Source of the DNA: Actinobacteria bacterium OV320
GTDB lineage: Bacteria; Actinomycetota; Actinomycetes; Streptomycetales; Streptomycetaceae
Assembly: GCA_001298545.1 (NCBI GenBank)
Contig: LJCX01000031.1
Span: 186,001-250,000 of the forward strand
Direction of reading: 5' to 3'
DNA: 64,000 nt
The notes below the pieces were generated by a model. The model saw only the letters and a program-made list of their open reading frames with translations. It had not been told where the DNA came from and searched no databases. Position numbers and translations under genes: made by a program. The stretch's first letter is position 1. Every line of letters starts with the position of its first letter. This document shows, piece by piece, positions 46,439 to 56,529 of the stretch.

Positions 46439-47908
46439 GTGAGTGCTTCCCGACGTAGTGGGACCACCGACGAGCTGGGGCCGGACGAGCCCGAGCGGTC
46501 GGGCGGCGACGGCCCCACGCCCCCGGAAGGCGCGGAGACCGCGGTTGGCCCGGACGGCACCGATCTGCTCGCCGCGCTGCTCGACGGCATGGACGCGGCG
46601 CTCTGCGCGTTCGACGGCGACGGCATCGTCACCCACTGGAACCGCGAGGCCGAGCGCATCCTCGGCTGGACCGCCGCCGAGGCGGTCGGCCGGCACGGCT
46701 TCGCGGGCTGGGCCGTGCGCGAGGCCGACGCCGAGGACATCGAGGGGCGGCTGATGTCCGCCATGCACGCGTCGGGCCGCCAGGTCCACGAGTTCGCGCT
46801 GCTGACCAAGGACGGCGGCCGCGTCCTCGTGCGCAGCCAGTCCGCCGCCGTGCGCGGGCCCGACGGCAAGCCCGCGGGGCTGTACTTCGCGTTCAGCGAG
46901 GTGCACGCCCAGATCGACCTGGAGCGCTCCATCGCGCTCAGCGAGGCCCTCTTCGACGACGCCTCCTGGGGAGTCGTCCTGGTCGACGCCGACCTGCGCC
47001 CCGCCGTCGTCAACGCGCACGCCGCCCGCGCGCTCGGCACCGGCCGTACGGCCGCCCTGGGCCGCCCCCTGGGCGATCTGCTCACCCGGGGCGTCGAGGA
47101 GCTGGAGAACGCGCTGACGCACGTCCTCGCCGAGGGCGCTCCGCCGGCCCCCGCCGAGCTGTGGGTCGGCGTGCGCACCCCGGAGGGGGAGAAGCGGCGC
47201 TGCTGGCGCAGCGGCTTCCTGCGGCTCGCCTCGCCGCTCGCCGAGGAGCCGGTGCCGCTCGGGGTCGGCTGGCTCTTCCAGGACGTCACGGAGGCCAAGC
47301 AGGGCGAGCAGGAGGCCTCGCTGCTGCGCTTCCGCGCCAACCAGCTGCACCGGGCGGCCCGCGCGGCCGCCGAGTGCGAGGACCCCGCCGAGGCGGCCAC
47401 CGTGCACCTCGACTTCGCGCTCGCCGGATTCGCCGACCACGCCCTGGTCGACCGGGTGATGGGCGGCGCCCCGGCCGACGTGGAGGGGGCCGGTCCGCAG
47501 CGGCTGATGCGGGTCGCGGCCACCCCCTCGGGCGGGCCGGGTCCCAGCGCGCTCACCGGACACACGGGCCTGCCGGTGCGCTACGGCGAGGCGCACCCGG
47601 CGCTTCAGAGCGTGGCGAGGGCCGGTTCGGTGCGGGCCGGGGTGGGCTCCGCGCCGGCCGACGAGGCACGGGAGTGGGCCCGGGCGCGCCTGTGGCCCGA
47701 CGACACGGTGCACGCCTTGTGCGCGGTGCTGCGCAGCAGGGGCCGCACCCTGGGTGTCGTGACGTTCCTGCGCGGCGGCGGCCGTACGGCCTTCGAGCGT
47801 TCCGACGCGAACTACGCCGAGGATGTCGCCGTCCGGATAGCCGCGGCGCTGGACCTCGCCGATCTGACCGGGGCGGCCGACGCGGCGGCTCGGGACGAAG
47901 GCGCCTGA
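46439..47908 (+). CDS. PAS-PAS-GAF sensor protein without output domain
   Basis: A 489-residue cytoplasmic protein. PAS1 spans ~43-155 (MDAALCAFDGDGIVTHWNREAERILGW), PAS2 ~165-285 (DDASWGVVLVDADLRPAVVN, ending GVGWLFQDVTEAKQGE), and a GAF-like region ~300-475 with VHALCAVLRSRGRTLGVVTFLRG. Streptomyces proteins with this start usually end in a PP2C (SpoIIE-like) phosphatase domain; here the protein stops after the GAF. GTG start with AGGGGG seven bases upstream. The first 35 residues are a disordered acidic/proline-rich tail. Probably a sensory partner of another protein. Confidence 0.85.
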   Translation: MSASRRSGTTDELGPDEPERSGGDGPTPPEGAETAVGPDGTDLLAALLDGMDAALCAFDGDGIVTHWNREAERILGWTAAEAVGRHGFAGWAVREADAEDIEGRLMSAMHASGRQVHEFALLTKDGGRVLVRSQSAAVRGPDGKPAGLYFAFSEVHAQIDLERSIALSEALFDDASWGVVLVDADLRPAVVNAHAARALGTGRTAALGRPLGDLLTRGVEELENALTHVLAEGAPPAPAELWVGVRTPEGEKRRCWRSGFLRLASPLAEEPVPLGVGWLFQDVTEAKQGEQEASLLRFRANQLHRAARAAAECEDPAEAATVHLDFALAGFADHALVDRVMGGAPADVEGAGPQRLMRVAATPSGGPGPSALTGHTGLPVRYGEAHPALQSVARAGSVRAGVGSAPADEAREWARARLWPDDTVHALCAVLRSRGRTLGVVTFLRGGGRTAFERSDANYAEDVAVRIAAALDLADLTGAADAAARDEGA

Positions 47909-47978: not shown

Positions 47979-48734
47979 TCAGCGGCGGTAGAAGATCCGG
48001 TCCCGGTACTCCTCCATGATCCGCCCGTTCCAGTCGTGGCCGCCGTCGACGTTGCCGGAGCGCAGCAGCGGGGGCTCGATGCCGCGCTCGGCGAGGACGC
48101 CGGCCGCGGTGGCCATCACGGCCTGCAGGAGGGCCGAGGTGACGACCGTGGAGGCGGGGGCGAAGGGCGCGGGGACGGTGTCGAGGGTGAGCTCGGCGTC
48201 GCCGACCGCGATCTTCGAGTCGAGGACGACGTCGCAGTGGTCCTTCAGGAACGTTCCGGAGGCATGCCGGGACGTCGTCTCCGAGGCGTAGGCCACCGAC
48301 GTCAGGCCGATCACCCGGACGCCCAGGGCGCGGGCCTTCTGGGCCATCTCCACGGGCAGGGCGTTGCGGCCGGACAGCGACACGATGACGAGGGCGTCGC
48401 CCGCGCGCAGGGGCGAGGTGTCCAGGACCGCGCTCGCGAGGCCGTCGACGCGCTCCAGGGCGGAGCCGAGGGTGGCGGGGGTGACGTCGACGCCGACGAC
48501 GCCCGGGACCGCGAGCAGGTTCATCAGGGCGAGGCCGCCCGCGCGGTAGACGACGTCCTGGGCGGCGAGGGAGGAGTGACCGGCGCCGAAGGCGAAGAGG
48601 CGGCCGCCTGCGGCCACGGTGTCGGCGAGGAGCGTGCCGGCGGCCTCGACGGTGTCGGCCTCCTCGTCGCGGGCCCGCTGGAGCAGGGCGATCGCGGCGT
48701 CGAAGAACTGGGCGGCGAGCTTGCGGTCGCTCAT
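47979..48734 (-). CDS. SIS-domain sugar-phosphate isomerase/binding protein
   Basis: A 251-residue protein with one SIS domain. It has the sugar-phosphate pocket pattern: AFGAGHSSLAAQDVVYRAGG near 50-70 and ALVIVSLSGRNALPVEMAQKARALGVRVIGLTS at ~115-145. Such proteins bind or isomerise phosphosugars, often amino sugars. The ATG at 48734 begins the family N-terminus MSDRKLAAQFFDAA; a longer frame upstream is not needed. The promoter carries a DasR-type box, so GlcNAc-6-P/GlcN-6-P control is likely. Divergent from dmdR1. Confidence 0.88.
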   Translation of the reverse strand: MSDRKLAAQFFDAAIALLQRARDEEADTVEAAGTLLADTVAAGGRLFAFGAGHSSLAAQDVVYRAGGLALMNLLAVPGVVGVDVTPATLGSALERVDGLASAVLDTSPLRAGDALVIVSLSGRNALPVEMAQKARALGVRVIGLTSVAYASETTSRHASGTFLKDHCDVVLDSKIAVGDAELTLDTVPAPFAPASTVVTSALLQAVMATAAGVLAERGIEPPLLRSGNVDGGHDWNGRIMEEYRDRIFYRR

Positions 48735-48777
48735 CCGAAGGGCCCCTTTGCCGTAGCGGGTGTCCGTGTCGCGGATC

Positions 48778-48807
48778 ACCGTGCGGTCTGGACCAGTGCG
48801 CTGTCAA
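48778..48807 (-). promoter_or_regulatory. SIS gene promoter with DasR-like (dre) box
   Basis: On the minus strand TTGACA (48807-48802), an 18-bp spacer and CACGGT (48783-48778). Inside the spacer is ACTGGTCCAGACCGCA (48797-48782), 13 of 16 matches to the DasR responsive element ACTGGTCTAGACCACT. DasR control of iron regulation through dmdR1 has been reported in S. coelicolor. Confidence 0.7.
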
Positions 48808-48932: not shown

Positions 48933-49004
48933 CCAGGGCCAGCGCACGCGCCGGAGAGCCGTTCAGCCTTCGGCAGAGCCAGCAGAGCTAATCGAGGGGC
49001 ACAC

Positions 49005-49697
49005 ATGTCCGGACTGATCGACACCACGGAGATGTATCTCCGCACCATCCTCGAGTTGGAAGAGGAAGGCGTGGTGCCCATGCGTGCCCGGATCGCCGAA
49101 CGCCTCGACCAGAGCGGGCCGACGGTCAGCCAGACGGTGGCGCGCATGGAGCGCGACGGTCTGGTCTCCGTGGCCAGCGACCGACACCTGGAGCTCACCG
49201 ACGAGGGCCGCAGGCTCGCCACGCGCGTGATGCGCAAGCACCGCCTCGCCGAGTGTCTCCTCGTCGACGTGATCGGCCTGGAGTGGGAGCAGGTGCACGC
49301 CGAGGCCTGTCGCTGGGAGCACGTGATGAGCGAGGCCGTCGAGCGTCGCGTGCTGGAGCTGCTGCGGCACCCGACCGAGTCGCCGTACGGCAACCCGATC
49401 CCGGGCCTGGAGGAGCTGGGCGAGAAGGACGGCGCCGACCCGTTCCTGGACGAGGGCATGGTCTCGCTGGCCGACCTCGACCCGGGCCTGGAGGGCAAGA
49501 CGGTCGTCGTACGCCGGATCGGCGAGCCGATCCAGACGGACGCGCAGCTGATGTACACGCTGCGCCGCGCGGGCGTGCAGCCCGGTTCGGTGGTGAGCGT
49601 GACGGAGTCGGCGGGCGGTGTCCTGGTGGGCAGCGGCGGCGAGGCCGCCGAGCTGGAGTCGGACGTCGCGTCCCACGTGTTCGTCGCGAAGCGCTGA
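49005..49697 (+). CDS. dmdR1: Iron-dependent transcriptional repressor, DtxR family
   Basis: A 230-residue DtxR/IdeR-type repressor that, with Fe2+, shuts off siderophore and iron-uptake genes. Domain 1: HTH at ~20-60 (IAERLDQSGPTVSQTVARMERDGLV). Metal ligands correspond to DtxR: Met10, and in VHAEACRWEHVM the residues His98, Cys102, Glu105, His106. C-terminal SH3-like domain ~150-230. ATG 49005, with GAGGGG upstream. The S. coelicolor orthologue DmdR1 (SCO4394) is described as overlapping the antiparallel gene adm; a long antisense frame is present here too (48963-49676). Confidence 0.95.
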   Translation: MSGLIDTTEMYLRTILELEEEGVVPMRARIAERLDQSGPTVSQTVARMERDGLVSVASDRHLELTDEGRRLATRVMRKHRLAECLLVDVIGLEWEQVHAEACRWEHVMSEAVERRVLELLRHPTESPYGNPIPGLEELGEKDGADPFLDEGMVSLADLDPGLEGKTVVVRRIGEPIQTDAQLMYTLRRAGVQPGSVVSVTESAGGVLVGSGGEAAELESDVASHVFVAKR

Positions 49698-49928: not shown

Positions 49929-49956
49929 GGCCCCGGTGCCGTACGGCACCGGGGCC
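49929..49956. terminator. 28-bp perfect palindrome, probable terminator
   Basis: Arms 49929-49942 and 49943-49956 are exact complements centred on GTAC. In RNA it forms a 12-bp stem with a four-base loop, followed by TGTCCTCCCCT. Confidence 0.7.
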
Positions 49957-50215
49957 TGTCCTCCCCTGTACTGACCCGGAGCCCCGAGCTCTCAGGGTCA
50001 TTCCCCTCGGACCGATTTCCCCGAGCGGTCCGCCTCCCGTTGAAGGTCTCCCCTCGGCAGCGGCGATCATTCCTTGAGTGTGGTCACTCGAACGAGGGGT
50101 GTTGTGCGCGGAGAGTGCATTTCTCGAAAGGCCATTCGATAGCCTGCGGGTGATTGAAGGCAGTACGAAGGCATCGGAAGCGCAGCGGTATGACGGCTAG
50201 GGGGTGCCAGGACCT

Positions 50216-51172
50216 ATGGCGCGACGCATCGACGTGACCGGGGCGGGCGGCGTGCGCCTGGCGGCCTGGGAGTTCGGTGACCCGCCCAAGGGCGACCCGG
50301 CGAAAGCGGTGACGGAGCCCGTGATTCCGCCCCAGTCCGTGCGGAAGCGGGAGGGGGGCCGGCCCGCCGGGCTCCACGAGAACGGCGCCGGAAGCAGGCC
50401 GGGCGTCCTGTTACTGCACGGTCTGATGGGCCGGGCCTCGCACTGGTCGTCCACCGCCCGCTGGCTCTCCGAGCGGCACCGCGCGGTCGCCCTCGACCAG
50501 CGCGGCCACGGGCAGAGCGCGAAGCTGCCCGAGGCCGCCTTCACCCGCGAGGCCTATGTCGAGGACGCGGAGGCCGCCCTGGAGCAGCTCGGCCTCGCCC
50601 CGGCCGTCCTCATCGGCCACGCCATGGGCGCGCTCACCGCGTGGCAGCTGGCCGCCAAGCGCCCCGACCTGGTGCAGGGTCTGATCGTCTGCGACATGCG
50701 GGCCTCCGCGCTGGGCGCGGCCTCGCAGCGCGAGTGGGGCGACTGGTTCAAGTCCTGGCCGGCCCCCTTCGCCACGCTCGCCGACGTCCGCAAGTGGTTC
50801 GGCGAGGACGACCCCTGGGTGGAACGCCCGAACCCGTCCCGGGGCGAGTTCTACGCCGAGGTGATGCACGAGTCGCCGGACGGCTGGCGTCCCGTCTTCG
50901 AGCCCGAGCAGATGCTCAAGACCCGCGAGACCTGGGTCTACGACGCGCACTGGGAGGAGCTCACCCAGGTCCAGTGCCCGGCGCTGGTGGTGCGCGGCCT
51001 GGACGGCGAGCTCGGCCGCGCCGAGGCCCAGGAGATGGTGCGGGTCCTGCCGCGCGGCGCGTACGCGGAGGTCGCCGACGCCGGGCACCTCGTGCACTAC
51101 GACCAGCCGGAGGGATGGCGCACGGCGATCGAACCGTTCCTCGACGCCGTACTCGCCCCCGACGCCCCCTGA
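50216..51172 (+). CDS. Alpha/beta-hydrolase-fold protein lacking the nucleophile serine; contains a TTA codon
   Basis: A 318-residue protein of the alpha/beta hydrolase fold. The oxyanion region VLLLHGLMGRASHW, the DQRGHGQS block, and the catalytic His in ADAGHLVHYDQP are present, but the nucleophile elbow reads G-H-A-M-G: residue 136 is Ala (GCC, 50621-50623) instead of Ser. It is therefore probably not a classical esterase; it may bind a ligand, act as a regulator, or use other chemistry. Codon 66 is TTA (50411-50413), so translation needs the bldA tRNA and should be developmentally timed. A Lys/Pro-rich insert (~25-60) precedes the fold. ATG 50216 chosen over a GTG 12 bases upstream. Confidence 0.88.
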   Translation: MARRIDVTGAGGVRLAAWEFGDPPKGDPAKAVTEPVIPPQSVRKREGGRPAGLHENGAGSRPGVLLLHGLMGRASHWSSTARWLSERHRAVALDQRGHGQSAKLPEAAFTREAYVEDAEAALEQLGLAPAVLIGHAMGALTAWQLAAKRPDLVQGLIVCDMRASALGAASQREWGDWFKSWPAPFATLADVRKWFGEDDPWVERPNPSRGEFYAEVMHESPDGWRPVFEPEQMLKTRETWVYDAHWEELTQVQCPALVVRGLDGELGRAEAQEMVRVLPRGAYAEVADAGHLVHYDQPEGWRTAIEPFLDAVLAPDAP

Positions 51173-51212: not shown

Positions 51213-51244
51213 CCTGATCCCCTCAGGCCCCGGCCCCGCTGGGG

Positions 51245-51460
51245 CTCGGGCCCCGCTGGGGTTCCGGCCCCTCCTCGGGCTCGGGTCCCGCTGGGGTTCC
51301 GGCCCCTCCTCGGGCTCGGGTCCCGCTGGGGCTCCGGCCCCTCCTCGGGCTCGGGCCCCGCTGGGGCTCCGGCCCCTCCTCGGGCTCGGGCCCCGCTGGG
51401 GCTCCGGCCCCTCCTCGGGCTCGGGTCCCGCTGGGGTTCCGGCCCCTCTTAGGGCTCGGG
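51245..51460. repeat. 35-bp tandem repeat, six units
   Basis: Units starting CTCGGG(C/T)CCCGCTGGGG begin at 51245, 51280, 51315, 51350, 51385 and 51420, with a degenerate stub at 51455. Differences are confined to C/T changes at two positions and the end of the last unit. Confidence 0.93.
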
Positions 51461-51617
51461 CCCCCTCGGGCCCCGGCCTCGCTCGGCTCCCGGCCCTCCC
51501 TCGGGGCCTCTGAGGTCCCTGCGGGCTCTGGTGATCTCCCTGAGCCCCTGCGGCCCGCCGGAGGCGCCCAGACGACCGCCGAAGGCCTCCCGAGGCCGCG
51601 GGTCCAGGCTTCCTCGG

Positions 51618-54145: not shown

Positions 54146-54799
54146 TCAGCGATCGCGCCCGCAGGCGTAGGCGAGCGGCGAGATCAACTCCTCCGCGTCC
54201 GGCAGCCAGCGGTTCGCGGCGGTGGGCCGGCACGCCCACTGCACGGCACCCCGCGACCCGAACCGCGTGGGCGGCGCGGCGACCCACATGCCCTCGCCGA
54301 GCGTCAGGAGATCGAGCGCGCCCAGCGACCAGCCCAGCTTGCGCACCATGTCCGGCACCTTCGCCGACGCGCCCGGCAACACGAAGAACTGCATCCGCCG
54401 GTCCGGCGTCAACGTGACGGGACCGAGCGTCAACTCCATCCGCTCCATCCGCGCCAGTGCGAGAAACCCGGCCGTCTCCGGAACGGAGATCGCGTCGAAC
54501 GTACGCCCGGTCGGCAGCAGGATCGAGGCGGTCGGCTGCTTCTGCCACATCCGGCGCGCGACCGTCGCGCTCCCGGTGGCCTGGGTCGCCCAGTCGGGGC
54601 GTGCGGGGTGCGCGCCCGGCGCCGCACACGCGCCGTCGCCGCAGGAGCAGCGCTGCAGTCCTTCGACGGGTTCCAGCCAGGTGCCGGGGAACACGTCCCA
54701 ATGACGTTCCTCGGCGTATCGGACAGCGGTCTCGAGCAGCGATTCCCCGCGCTGCTTCGGGATTTGAGTGGCTTCGGCGCCCGCGATGGTCTCTTCCAC
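54146..54799 (-). CDS. PrimPol N-terminal domain protein
   Basis: A protein of 217 residues (from the GTG at 54799; a GTG at 54823 would add eight) with the bifunctional DNA primase/polymerase N-terminal fold. It contains RHWDVFPGTWLEP, then a Cys-rich stretch CSCGDGACAAPGAHPARPDW typical of this family in streptomycetes, and ASILLPTGRTFDAISVP. No helicase domain is attached, so it is a lone domain; no phage or plasmid genes are near. Role in DNA repair or replication cannot be decided. No clear ribosome binding site for either start. Confidence 0.8.
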   Translation of the reverse strand: MEETIAGAEATQIPKQRGESLLETAVRYAEERHWDVFPGTWLEPVEGLQRCSCGDGACAAPGAHPARPDWATQATGSATVARRMWQKQPTASILLPTGRTFDAISVPETAGFLALARMERMELTLGPVTLTPDRRMQFFVLPGASAKVPDMVRKLGWSLGALDLLTLGEGMWVAAPPTRFGSRGAVQWACRPTAANRWLPDAEELISPLAYACGRDR

Positions 54800-55143
54800 G
54801 ATGAACACAACTCTAGCCGTCACCAGGGGTTACGCCCGTCACATTGCGCGGGGGAGGAGCATCGATTCCGCGTCCGGGGCGCATGGGTGCACGGGCGGGG
54901 GCGCGCGGGAGGAACGGGCGCGGGAGCGGGTAACCAGGTAGAGGGGGGCGGGCGTCCGCCGGTAACCCGGCAATTCTCTGTATTCCTCGGCAAGTCTTGG
55001 CAATCCTCACATGCCTCGCATTTTCGCTGCGGCTGTGGGGCATTGATCTTCTCGGCCGGAACTTTTCGGTGGAAGACACGTCAACTCGGTGTGTGGGCGG
55101 GCACCCGCCGTCCCGGTCACCGCAGCCACAGGGGGTAGTGCCC
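54800..55143. other. Divergent region upstream of the NsdA-like regulator gene
   Basis: 344 bp, no gene. Positions 54960-55090 are clearly AT-richer than average. GGCAA occurs at 54969, 54989 and 54999, i.e. at 20 and 10 bp spacing, as phased direct repeats. AGGGGG (about 55130) is the ribosome binding site of the next gene. Confidence 0.5.
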
Positions 55144-56529
55144 ATGGCCGCAAGGCCGCTAGTCGCGAGGCAGCCGAACGAACGGTTGCAGGCGCTCATC
55201 CAGGAGGCGGGGTGCTCGAACGCCGGGCTCGCCCGCCGCGTCAACATGTGCGGCGCCGAGCACGGACTCGACCTGCGCTACGACAAGACGTCCGTGGCCC
55301 GTTGGCTGCGCGGACAGCAGCCGCGGGGCCGCGCCCCGGCGATCATCGCCGAGGCGCTGGGCCGCAAGCTCGGCCGTACGGTCACGATCGACGAGATCGG
55401 CATGGCCAACGGCAAGAACCTCGCCTCGGGCGTGGGTCTCCAGTTCTCGCCGACGGTACTGGGGGCCATCGAGCAGGTCTGCGAACTGTGGCGCAGTGAC
55501 GTGGGCCGACGCGACTTCCTCTCCGGGTCGTCCGTGGCCGCCTCCGCGCTGGTCGAGCCGAGCCGCGACTGGCTGATCTCCTCCCCCGACGCGCAGGTTG
55601 CGCGGTCGGCCGGCCCCCGGGTGGGCCTCTCCGACGTCGCGGCCGTCAAGGCGATGACCCAGGCGCTGGTCGACCTGGACCACCAGTACGGCAGCGGGCA
55701 TGTGCGCCCGGTCGTCGTGCACTACCTCAACAGCGTCGTCTCGGGCCTGCTGGCCGGCTCCTACCGGGAGGCGGTGGGCCGGGAACTCTTCGCGGCCGTG
55801 GCCCGGTTGACGGAACTCGCCGGCTACATGGCCGTCGACACCGGCCAACCCGGCCTCGCCCAGCGCTACTACATCCAGGCGCTGCGGCTCGCCCAGGCGG
55901 CTGGCGACAGGGGGTACGGCGGCTACGTCCTCGCCGCGTCCATGAGCCATCTCGCCGCGCAGCTCGGAAACCCGCGGGAGATCGCGCAGTTGGCGCGCGC
56001 CGCGCAGGAGGGGGCGCGGGGGCGGGTGACGCCGCGCGCGGAGGCGATGTTCCTCGCGGCGGAGGCACGCGGCCACGCGCTGCTGGGGGACGCGCGCGGG
56101 GCGCAGGCGGCGTCCGGGCGGGCCATCTCGGCGCTGGAGGCGGCCGAGCCGTCCGCCGGGGACGACCCCGCGTGGATCGCGCACTTCGACGAGGCCTATC
56201 TGGCCGACGAGTTGGCGCACTGCCACCGCGACCTGGGCCAGGCCGAGGCGGCGGCGCGCTGTGCCGAACAGTCCCTGGCCGGGCACCCGGAGAGCCGTGC
56301 GCGCCGGCGCGCCATCGGCTACGTCCTGCTGGCCACCGCGCAGGTGCAGCAGCGCGAGATCGAACAGGCCTGCCACACGGGCCTCAAGGCGGTCGAGCTC
56401 CTCGAGACGCTCCGCTCCAACCGGGGCGCGGAGTACCTGGAGGACCTCCAGCAGCGACTGGAACCGTTCCGGGACGAGTCGGTGGTAAGGGAGTTCGGGG
56501 CGCGGCTGGAGCTGCAGACCGCGGCGTGA
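55144..56529 (+). CDS. NsdA-like transcriptional regulator with TPR-type repeats
   Basis: A 461-residue protein of the streptomycete family that includes NsdA. Residues ~10-75 are a helix-turn-helix (LQALIQEAGCSNAGLARRV, TSVARWLRGQQPRGRAP); the internal RRDFLSGSSVAASALV segment (~120-138) is a family hallmark; ~160-450 are helical TPR-like repeats (YYIQALRLAQAAGDRGYGGYVLAASMS, AEAAARCAEQSL). Members repress sporulation and antibiotic production. Start ATG 55144 with AGGGGG seven to eight bases upstream. The exact target is unknown. Confidence 0.85.
   Translation: MAARPLVARQPNERLQALIQEAGCSNAGLARRVNMCGAEHGLDLRYDKTSVARWLRGQQPRGRAPAIIAEALGRKLGRTVTIDEIGMANGKNLASGVGLQFSPTVLGAIEQVCELWRSDVGRRDFLSGSSVAASALVEPSRDWLISSPDAQVARSAGPRVGLSDVAAVKAMTQALVDLDHQYGSGHVRPVVVHYLNSVVSGLLAGSYREAVGRELFAAVARLTELAGYMAVDTGQPGLAQRYYIQALRLAQAAGDRGYGGYVLAASMSHLAAQLGNPREIAQLARAAQEGARGRVTPRAEAMFLAAEARGHALLGDARGAQAASGRAISALEAAEPSAGDDPAWIAHFDEAYLADELAHCHRDLGQAEAAARCAEQSLAGHPESRARRRAIGYVLLATAQVQQREIEQACHTGLKAVELLETLRSNRGAEYLEDLQQRLEPFRDESVVREFGARLELQTAA

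Follow-up and report, generated by a model that had tools for sequence, protein, structure and literature searches.

What does a protein with the alpha/beta-hydrolase fold do when the serine of its nucleophile elbow is an alanine, and is such a protein the result of a recent accident in one strain or the member of a family that manages without this residue? The question is raised by a gene of Actinobacteria bacterium OV320 (Streptomycetaceae), located in a stretch of 64,000 nucleotides (contig LJCX01000031.1, positions 186,001 to 250,000) that we call the window. A sequence-only reading of this gene had pointed to the motif GHAMG at the elbow and proposed that the protein, unable to hydrolyse in the usual way, could be a ligand receptor, a regulator or a catalyst of other chemistry, and either a recent loss of function or a genuine conserved pseudoenzyme. 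The catalytic serine is commonly used to label a protein as a hydrolase or as a dead pseudoenzyme. Here both states of the residue are found within one largely syntenic orthologue set that is under selection, so that neither label is safe.

The gene, its product and the predicted fold

The features of the locus are collected in Table 1. The ATG start of the gene was retained, the alternative being a GTG 12 nt upstream (50204). Translation bears out the GHAMG elbow, and the oxyanion-hole segment and the catalytic His are kept as the sequence-only reading had said, the latter (H291) within AGHLVHYDQP. The Pfam profile Abhydrolase_1 covers residues 64–297 (E 1e-23), and an AlphaFold2 model, obtained with an alignment of eight rows as input, had a mean pLDDT of 82, with residues 24–59 poorly predicted. 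This predicted model matches alpha/beta hydrolases, the top structure being 3kxp (Z 30.0, rmsd 2.6 Å, 266 residues). Among the 25 best NCBIfam families listed none reached its cut-off; the top one, PcaCD, gave 90.4 bits vs 430, and the curated cut-offs of 3-oxoadipate enol-lactonase, MenH and other named equivalogs were likewise missed. Within the window's own genome the next matches were weak (E 8.5e-14 or worse). Of what defines a classical serine alpha/beta hydrolase, the fold (by Pfam and the model) and the catalytic His and acid are present, and the Ser, Cys or Asp of the elbow is absent, the window protein having Ala there and 165 of the 243 orthologues either Ala or Gly. The classical reading is thus excluded for the window protein, in agreement with what had been argued from the missing serine.

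Table 1. Features of the locus (positions in the window)
Feature	Position	Strand	Basis
SIS-domain protein, nagS orthologue (GlcNAc-6-P dehydratase), divergent from dmdR1	47979..48779	-	name by synteny with PMC12680351
DtxR-family iron regulator, dmdR1 orthologue, syntenic neighbour	49002..49697	+	name by synteny with PMC12680351
Terminator-like GC-rich inverted repeat following dmdR1	49930..49955	+	by eye, sequence and upstream alignment
Second conserved upstream element, CACTCGAACGAG	50085..50096	.	upstream alignment
Upstream palindrome TCGAA-N6-TTCGATA	50124..50141	.	conserved; putative operator
Alpha/beta-hydrolase-fold protein, 318 aa + stop, Ala at nucleophile elbow	50216..51172	+	translation, profile, model
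Oxyanion-hole motif HGLMG, residues 68-72	50417..50431	+	sequence, conservation
Nucleophile elbow G134-H-A136-M-G138	50615..50629	+	Ala136 codon GCC at 50621-50623
Codon of Asp160, candidate acid of the dyad, following strand beta-6	50693..50695	+	conservation; putative dyad role
His291 codon, proposed general base	51086..51088	+	conservation; putative role

Distribution and gene neighbourhood

We have found the gene in 384 of 392 sampled Streptomyces genomes (best match with E 1e-80 or better), the other eight having weaker matches only, and the 80 named loci that were kept are all from Streptomyces. In an order-level sample it was present in 178 of 197 genomes, every one of them in the window's genus, and in 0 of the 15 genomes of other families. 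In a class sample no match better than E 2e-38 appeared outside Streptomyces. The family sample gave it in at least one genome of the codes g7, g8, g9, g10, g12, g13 and g16 and in none of the sampled genomes of g2–g6, g11, g14, g15 and g17. The protein family was seen here in a single family (code f1), that of Streptomyces and its sister genera.

The surroundings are also recognizable from strain to strain. All 23 of the named Streptomyces loci displayed have dmdR1 directly upstream and in the same direction. Among sister-genus regions this holds for 16 of 20; L227 is rearranged, and the remaining three gave no dmdR1 match in the stretch examined. The usual order is a gene for a PAS protein (+), nagS (-), dmdR1 (+) and the hydrolase-fold gene (+), with exceptions such as L195, in which the PAS gene is inverted. 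In the window the PAS-domain protein is encoded at 46439–47908, its order with the other three genes being mostly kept, and Pfam gives for it PAS domains only, with no output or phosphatase domain. In S. coelicolor nagS and dmdR1 are SCO4393 and SCO4394, and their linkage was reported as family-wide, with Yinghuangia excepted in the legend of a supporting figure (PMC12680351). From the adjacency to SCO4394 we infer that the hydrolase-fold gene is SCO4395. Among the papers searched by this tag, and among the results listed by description, we found no publication about it; SCO4395 does not appear in the body text of the paper on NagS (PMC12680351), and neither SCO4393–4395 nor a hydrolase is mentioned in PMC12161575. 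Being nearly universal in Streptomyces and placed beside the iron master regulator gene dmdR1 and the gene of the GlcNAc checkpoint enzyme, nagS, the gene is a target for functional work.

Seven of the eight Streptomyces genomes without the gene have dmdR1. Loss by decay was considered and rejected for these seven, no hydrolase remnant being detected at E 1e-3 beside dmdR1 in a span of up to 1500 nt on each side (in L294 the relevant side covered about 300 nt). In two loci without the gene, L295 and L296, a primase-polymerase gene lies directly after dmdR1. The window has a primase-polymerase-like gene at 54146–54823 (Pfam Prim-Pol), adjoining the gene of another protein (55081–56529). The latter, with no match in Pfam, we take to resemble NsdA, a negative regulator of Streptomyces differentiation.

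Residue 136 and the rest of the active site

From 292 loci, 288 had a readable motif, 244 of these scored above 180 bits, and removal of a paralogue (L233; 39%, GQSLG) left 243 orthologues. Four loci that seem to carry a frameshift or a rearrangement, in draft genomes (L076, L229, L278 and L292), were kept, and some named loci duplicate numbered ones (e.g., L134 and L015), so the safer count is that of 238 distinct sequences. Residue 136 was Ala in 155, Ser in 78 and Gly in 10 of the 243 orthologues (150, 78 and 10 of the 238), with the share of Ala inflated by a retrieval biased towards sequences similar to that of the window. The exact motif GHAMG was present in 154 of them and the change is therefore not chance or error; a sequencing error and a single-strain change are both ruled out by these counts. 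A second sample of 30 loci, which consisted of the best-scoring matches and overlapped with the earlier genomes, the window's own included, gave 25 GHAMG and 5 GHSMG. The sister genera were mostly of the Ser type, with 15 Ser, 3 Gly and 1 Ala among 19 readable sequences. The codons used were GCC or GCG, TCC or TCG, GGC or GGG, and one AGC. Thr, Pro, Val, Asp/Glu and Cys, though mutationally as close, did not appear in any of the 243 orthologues, indicating that the size of the residue is constrained and its hydroxyl is not.

The positions around the elbow behaved very differently. The site rate was 0.38 at residue 136 vs about 0.06 at G134, H135, M137 and G138, and among the 253 core positions, ordered by increasing rate, residue 136 was number 162, a little faster than the median. 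G134, H135, G138 and L140 were found in all 243 orthologues, T141 in 242 and M137 in 237. Position 160 was always an acid (D 236, E 7) and position 291 was His in 238 of the 240 orthologues readable there; D263, the other candidate acid, located after strand 7, varied more (232 D, 5 E, 3 A and 1 K in 241). The dyad accompanied the alanine faithfully: D160 in 154 of the 155 Ala-bearers (the remaining one with E) and H291 in 153 of 154. In the ten Gly-bearers the acid was D in five and E in five. His291 had been lost in two orthologues, L290 (Ala at 136), which has D, and L223 (Gly at 136), which has P, and these two could be later stages of decay. In total 72 core positions were at least 98.5% invariant, including active-site motifs (H68-G69, G134-H135, G138, A289-G290-H291) and residues of the cap region (W177, W181, W194, F195, D199, R209, W224, H245, W246), and this argues for a specific ligand, under an enzyme or a receptor reading alike. 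Among the most conserved stretches was also the segment GELGRAEAQEMVRVLP (264–279), not part of the classical motifs.

This orthologue family combines a variable nucleophile position with a nearly frozen His-Asp dyad. Neither of the two origins suggested beforehand describes it well. Recent loss of function in a single strain is contradicted by the wide occurrence of Ala, and the clean conserved pseudoenzyme by the coexistence of Ser and Gly orthologues and by the repeated changes of state described below; what remains is a family with varying nucleophile, tiny residues and a His-Asp pair nearly fixed. It had also been anticipated that Ser-bearing orthologues would reduce the finding to a point change of one strain. 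Such orthologues do exist, but the single-strain change does not follow from them.

How often residue 136 has changed

A codon tree was obtained from the hydrolase-fold gene together with dmdR1 (251 rows, 193 of them with dmdR1, residue 136 excluded), using as outgroup eight paralogues, all with Ser. It needs at least 27 changes at residue 136 with Ser at the root, the parsimony cost being 27 for Ser and 29 for either Ala or Gly as the root state. Depending on placement, these are 12–14 steps from Ser to Ala, 6–8 from Ala to Ser and 7 to Gly; some of them fall on weakly supported deep branches and the exact number is soft. One of the steps from Ser to Ala is ancestral to a clade of 114–125 rows. 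With late placement the well-supported clades that arose by this change had 114, 8, 7, 4 and 2 rows, with SH-aLRT values of 99.8, 99.7, 96.3, 95 and 100, which were read after re-rooting with Biopython and may be off by one branch near the root. Apparent returns to Ser within the large Ala clade were obtained under both placements, in L105/L208 (100) and in L171.

The protein tree gave a similar picture, with 28 changes at residue 136, of which 8–9 (Ala or Ser) are forced by the starred branches alone. A single Ala clade was rejected (lnL 225.5 lower, p-AU 4.4e-5) on 42 rows chosen for mixing, i.e., mixed pairs plus some others, whose starred branches force two changes. In a rough rate fit, to which we give no weight, the lnL was -101.6 when return to Ser was allowed vs -128.3 without it. 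Besides mutation, gene conversion between species could have moved the states of residue 136.

Selection and control families

The Ala-bearers give no indication that selection was relaxed after the loss of Ser. Their pairwise dN/dS, taken over residues 61–312 with 136 omitted, was 0.197 (2323 pairs, 138 rows) vs 0.283 in the Ser-bearers (1024 pairs, 47 rows), in pairs that are non-independent and with a Ser group that is the more divergent. The neighbouring DtxR gene, dmdR1, gave 0.084 and 0.114 in the same Ala and Ser groups.

Two hydrolase families used as controls kept the serine throughout, one in 18 of 18 loci (75–100% identity) and the other, RsbQ-like, in the 30 loci read out of 39 places (67–100% identity), both with the window genome's own copy included and both narrower in identity (67–100%) than the family studied here (47–100%). 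Among 44 weaker matches, i.e., paralogues and other hydrolases, the aligned position was Ser in 41 and Asp in three.

Two further ideas about the distribution of states were discarded. Mutation bias was not apparent, with GC3 of 0.930 in Ala-bearers vs 0.933 in Ser-bearers (p 0.35). As for compensating residues, in 20 independent Ala/Ser pairs no other column clearly followed the state of residue 136; the top ones, 247 (7/10 one way) and 133 (7/9), are unremarkable for some 317 columns.

Comparison with known proteins of the same fold

The top structural match, 3kxp, is an E-2-(acetamidomethylene)succinate hydrolase, an enzyme of vitamin B6 breakdown. It has 26% identity with the window protein, was also the top profile match (E 3e-22), and has the same spacing of 24 between the elbow and the Asp in the alignments; unlike the window protein, its elbow is aligned as Ser.

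RsbQ and D14 share with our protein the fold, with a single domain and a cap, and appear among the structural rows of the predicted model (RsbQ 1wpr with Z 25.8, rmsd 2.6 and 239 aligned residues; D14 with Z 25.6). Both retain the Ser nucleophile, which RsbQ requires, and RsbQ acts with a PAS-phosphatase partner. The window protein agrees with the RsbQ type in fold and size and departs from it in the serine, present in 78 of 243 orthologues here vs 30 of 30 in the RsbQ-like control. An adjacent PAS-phosphatase was not found either, the PAS gene being PAS-only and separated by nagS and dmdR1, and the other neighbours searched in Pfam not being phosphatases. A distinct RsbQ-like gene of the window genome (L008) keeps the Ser. 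At that locus (G000:C20, 101–1657 and 1492–2319, both on the minus strand) the end of the RsbQ-like hydrolase overlaps the start of an open reading frame that, by eye, resembles PAS plus phosphatase (RsbP-like).

The nearest parallel is that of the cofactor-independent dioxygenases HOD and AqdC, which use a His-Asp dyad, have a non-essential nucleophile and show a natural exchange of Ser to Ala (PMC10548524). In HOD the residues are S101, D126 and H251 and the dyad deprotonates the substrate; the S101A change raised the KM for the substrate 60-fold with kcat unaffected (PMC10548524), so that the Ser of HOD is not wholly neutral. Like these and other HQDs, the window protein has the alpha/beta-hydrolase fold, conserved His and acid and the Ser/Ala exchange, and the acid is at a similar distance, D126 being 25 residues past S101 in HOD and D160 24 past residue 136 here. 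At the sequence level, the dyad is there together with a Ser/Ala elbow that, to judge from its evolution, appears dispensable. Unlike in HOD, the positions matched by motif to W36, H38 and H102, which are substrate and O2 sites (PMC10548524), read L70, G72 and M137, and the window protein would therefore work like HOD, probably without being a member of its family. HOD and AqdC were absent from the 60 best sequence matches listed, drawn from searches with 286 and 526 matches, and from the 50 structural rows listed; a relationship may still exist. Another difference is that Gly also occurs here and that the exchange is documented in one largely syntenic orthologue set. The tomato methylketone synthase MKS1 is a decarboxylase with the hydrolase fold that has no canonical triad and retains the His as base (PMC10548524); it is a plant enzyme, likened to the window protein by its description in that paper.

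A proposed dyad without nucleophile and its alternatives

The repeated loss of Ser from an otherwise fixed site argues that an acyl-enzyme is unlikely to be needed, and we consider it very probable that the serine hydroxyl is dispensable, also in the members that have it. Of the three roles proposed at the outset, the retained dyad favours other chemistry. Our main reading, to which we give about one chance in two from conservation and from the analogy with HOD and MKS1, is that no nucleophilic serine is involved and that His291 and Asp160, as a dyad, serve as general base towards a small-molecule ligand. This ligand would sit in the space bounded by the oxyanion hole and the cap, itself conserved, and would be deprotonated or positioned by the dyad in all the members, Ser-bearers included, and the residue at the elbow need only be tiny. 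The reaction would proceed without acyl-enzyme and could be a decarboxylation, an elimination, a C-C cleavage or a cofactor-free oxygenation. The conserved His-Asp pair could also be maintained for binding or folding alone.

A non-catalytic role as ligand receptor or regulator, in which the pocket, shaped by dyad and cap, binds a small molecule and the signal is passed on to a protein partner, as with RsbQ or the plant proteins D14/GID1, is the main rival, possible but doubtful. An apparently unneeded hydroxyl agrees with it, as do the RsbQ and D14 structures among the matches and the regulatory or nutrient-signalling nature of the neighbours (dmdR1, nagS and the PAS protein) in a largely conserved order; against it, the receptors themselves keep their serine, including the RsbQ-like protein of the window genome, the near fixation of His291 and of the acid at 160 in Ala-bearers goes beyond the obvious needs of a receptor, and no partner was found in a neighbourhood where the PAS protein lacks a phosphatase domain and two genes intervene.

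It is rather improbable that the Ser-bearers are true serine hydrolases and that the Ala- and Gly-bearers are products of repeated inactivation which survive only for some time. Ser as the most parsimonious root, the predominance of Ser in the sister genera and the two orthologues that have also lost His291 could be so explained, but not easily the 12–14 steps to Ala, one of them ancestral to more than a hundred rows, the retention of the dyad with a dN/dS that is not raised, or the seeming reversions to Ser within the large Ala clade. The conservation of GELGRAEAQEMVRVLP outside the classical motifs would suit a protein whose primary function is that of a protein-protein scaffold, with Ser serving a secondary activity only and the pocket being a relic; this we regard as very improbable, since a scaffold independent of the pocket has no need of invariant active-site motifs and cap residues.

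Flanking regions

The terminator-like repeat after dmdR1 suggests that the hydrolase-fold gene is transcribed separately, probably from behind the palindromic element. The core of this element, TCGAA-N6-TTCGA, occurred without mismatch upstream of 178 of 191 orthologues and in none of the shuffled upstreams, and it runs into a TAGNNT-like box; for the second element, CACTCGWANGNG was present in 166 of the 191. The 18-base pattern appears once in the window genome, and in 61 Streptomyces genomes it had one match in 46, two to four in eight and none in seven, two of which (G003 and G032) also lack the gene. We have inspected 30 of the 65 places listed and 29 of them were beside a hydrolase-fold orthologue, the exception being L400; to judge from the contig numbers, G002 and G021 also have their single match in another place. 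One palindrome per genome, located before the hydrolase-fold gene, is then a rule, not a law.

A broader picture that we put forward only tentatively is that of a dyad-only family of Streptomyces, with Ala, Ser and Gly nearly neutral at the elbow, a so far undescribed reaction tied to iron or amino-sugar physiology, and a dedicated operator that is found once per genome. If true, it would be a natural experiment in which a catalytic triad sheds its nucleophile many times and the function is kept. The existing Ala, Ser and Gly forms of the protein provide a natural series on the role of the elbow residue other than as nucleophile.

The palindrome resembles an SOS box, the LexA consensus of S. 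venezuelae being tCGAAC-N4-GNNCGa (PMC9380542), but 144 of the 178 sites read TCGAAT and six TCGAAC. LexA is a possible regulator, with an imperfect fit; the main text of PMC9380542 mentions no hydrolase, dmdR1, dtxR or nagS. Downstream of the gene, at 51220–51480 of the window, GC-rich direct repeats can be seen by eye, with a unit like ctcgggccccgctggggctccggcccctcct appearing several times.
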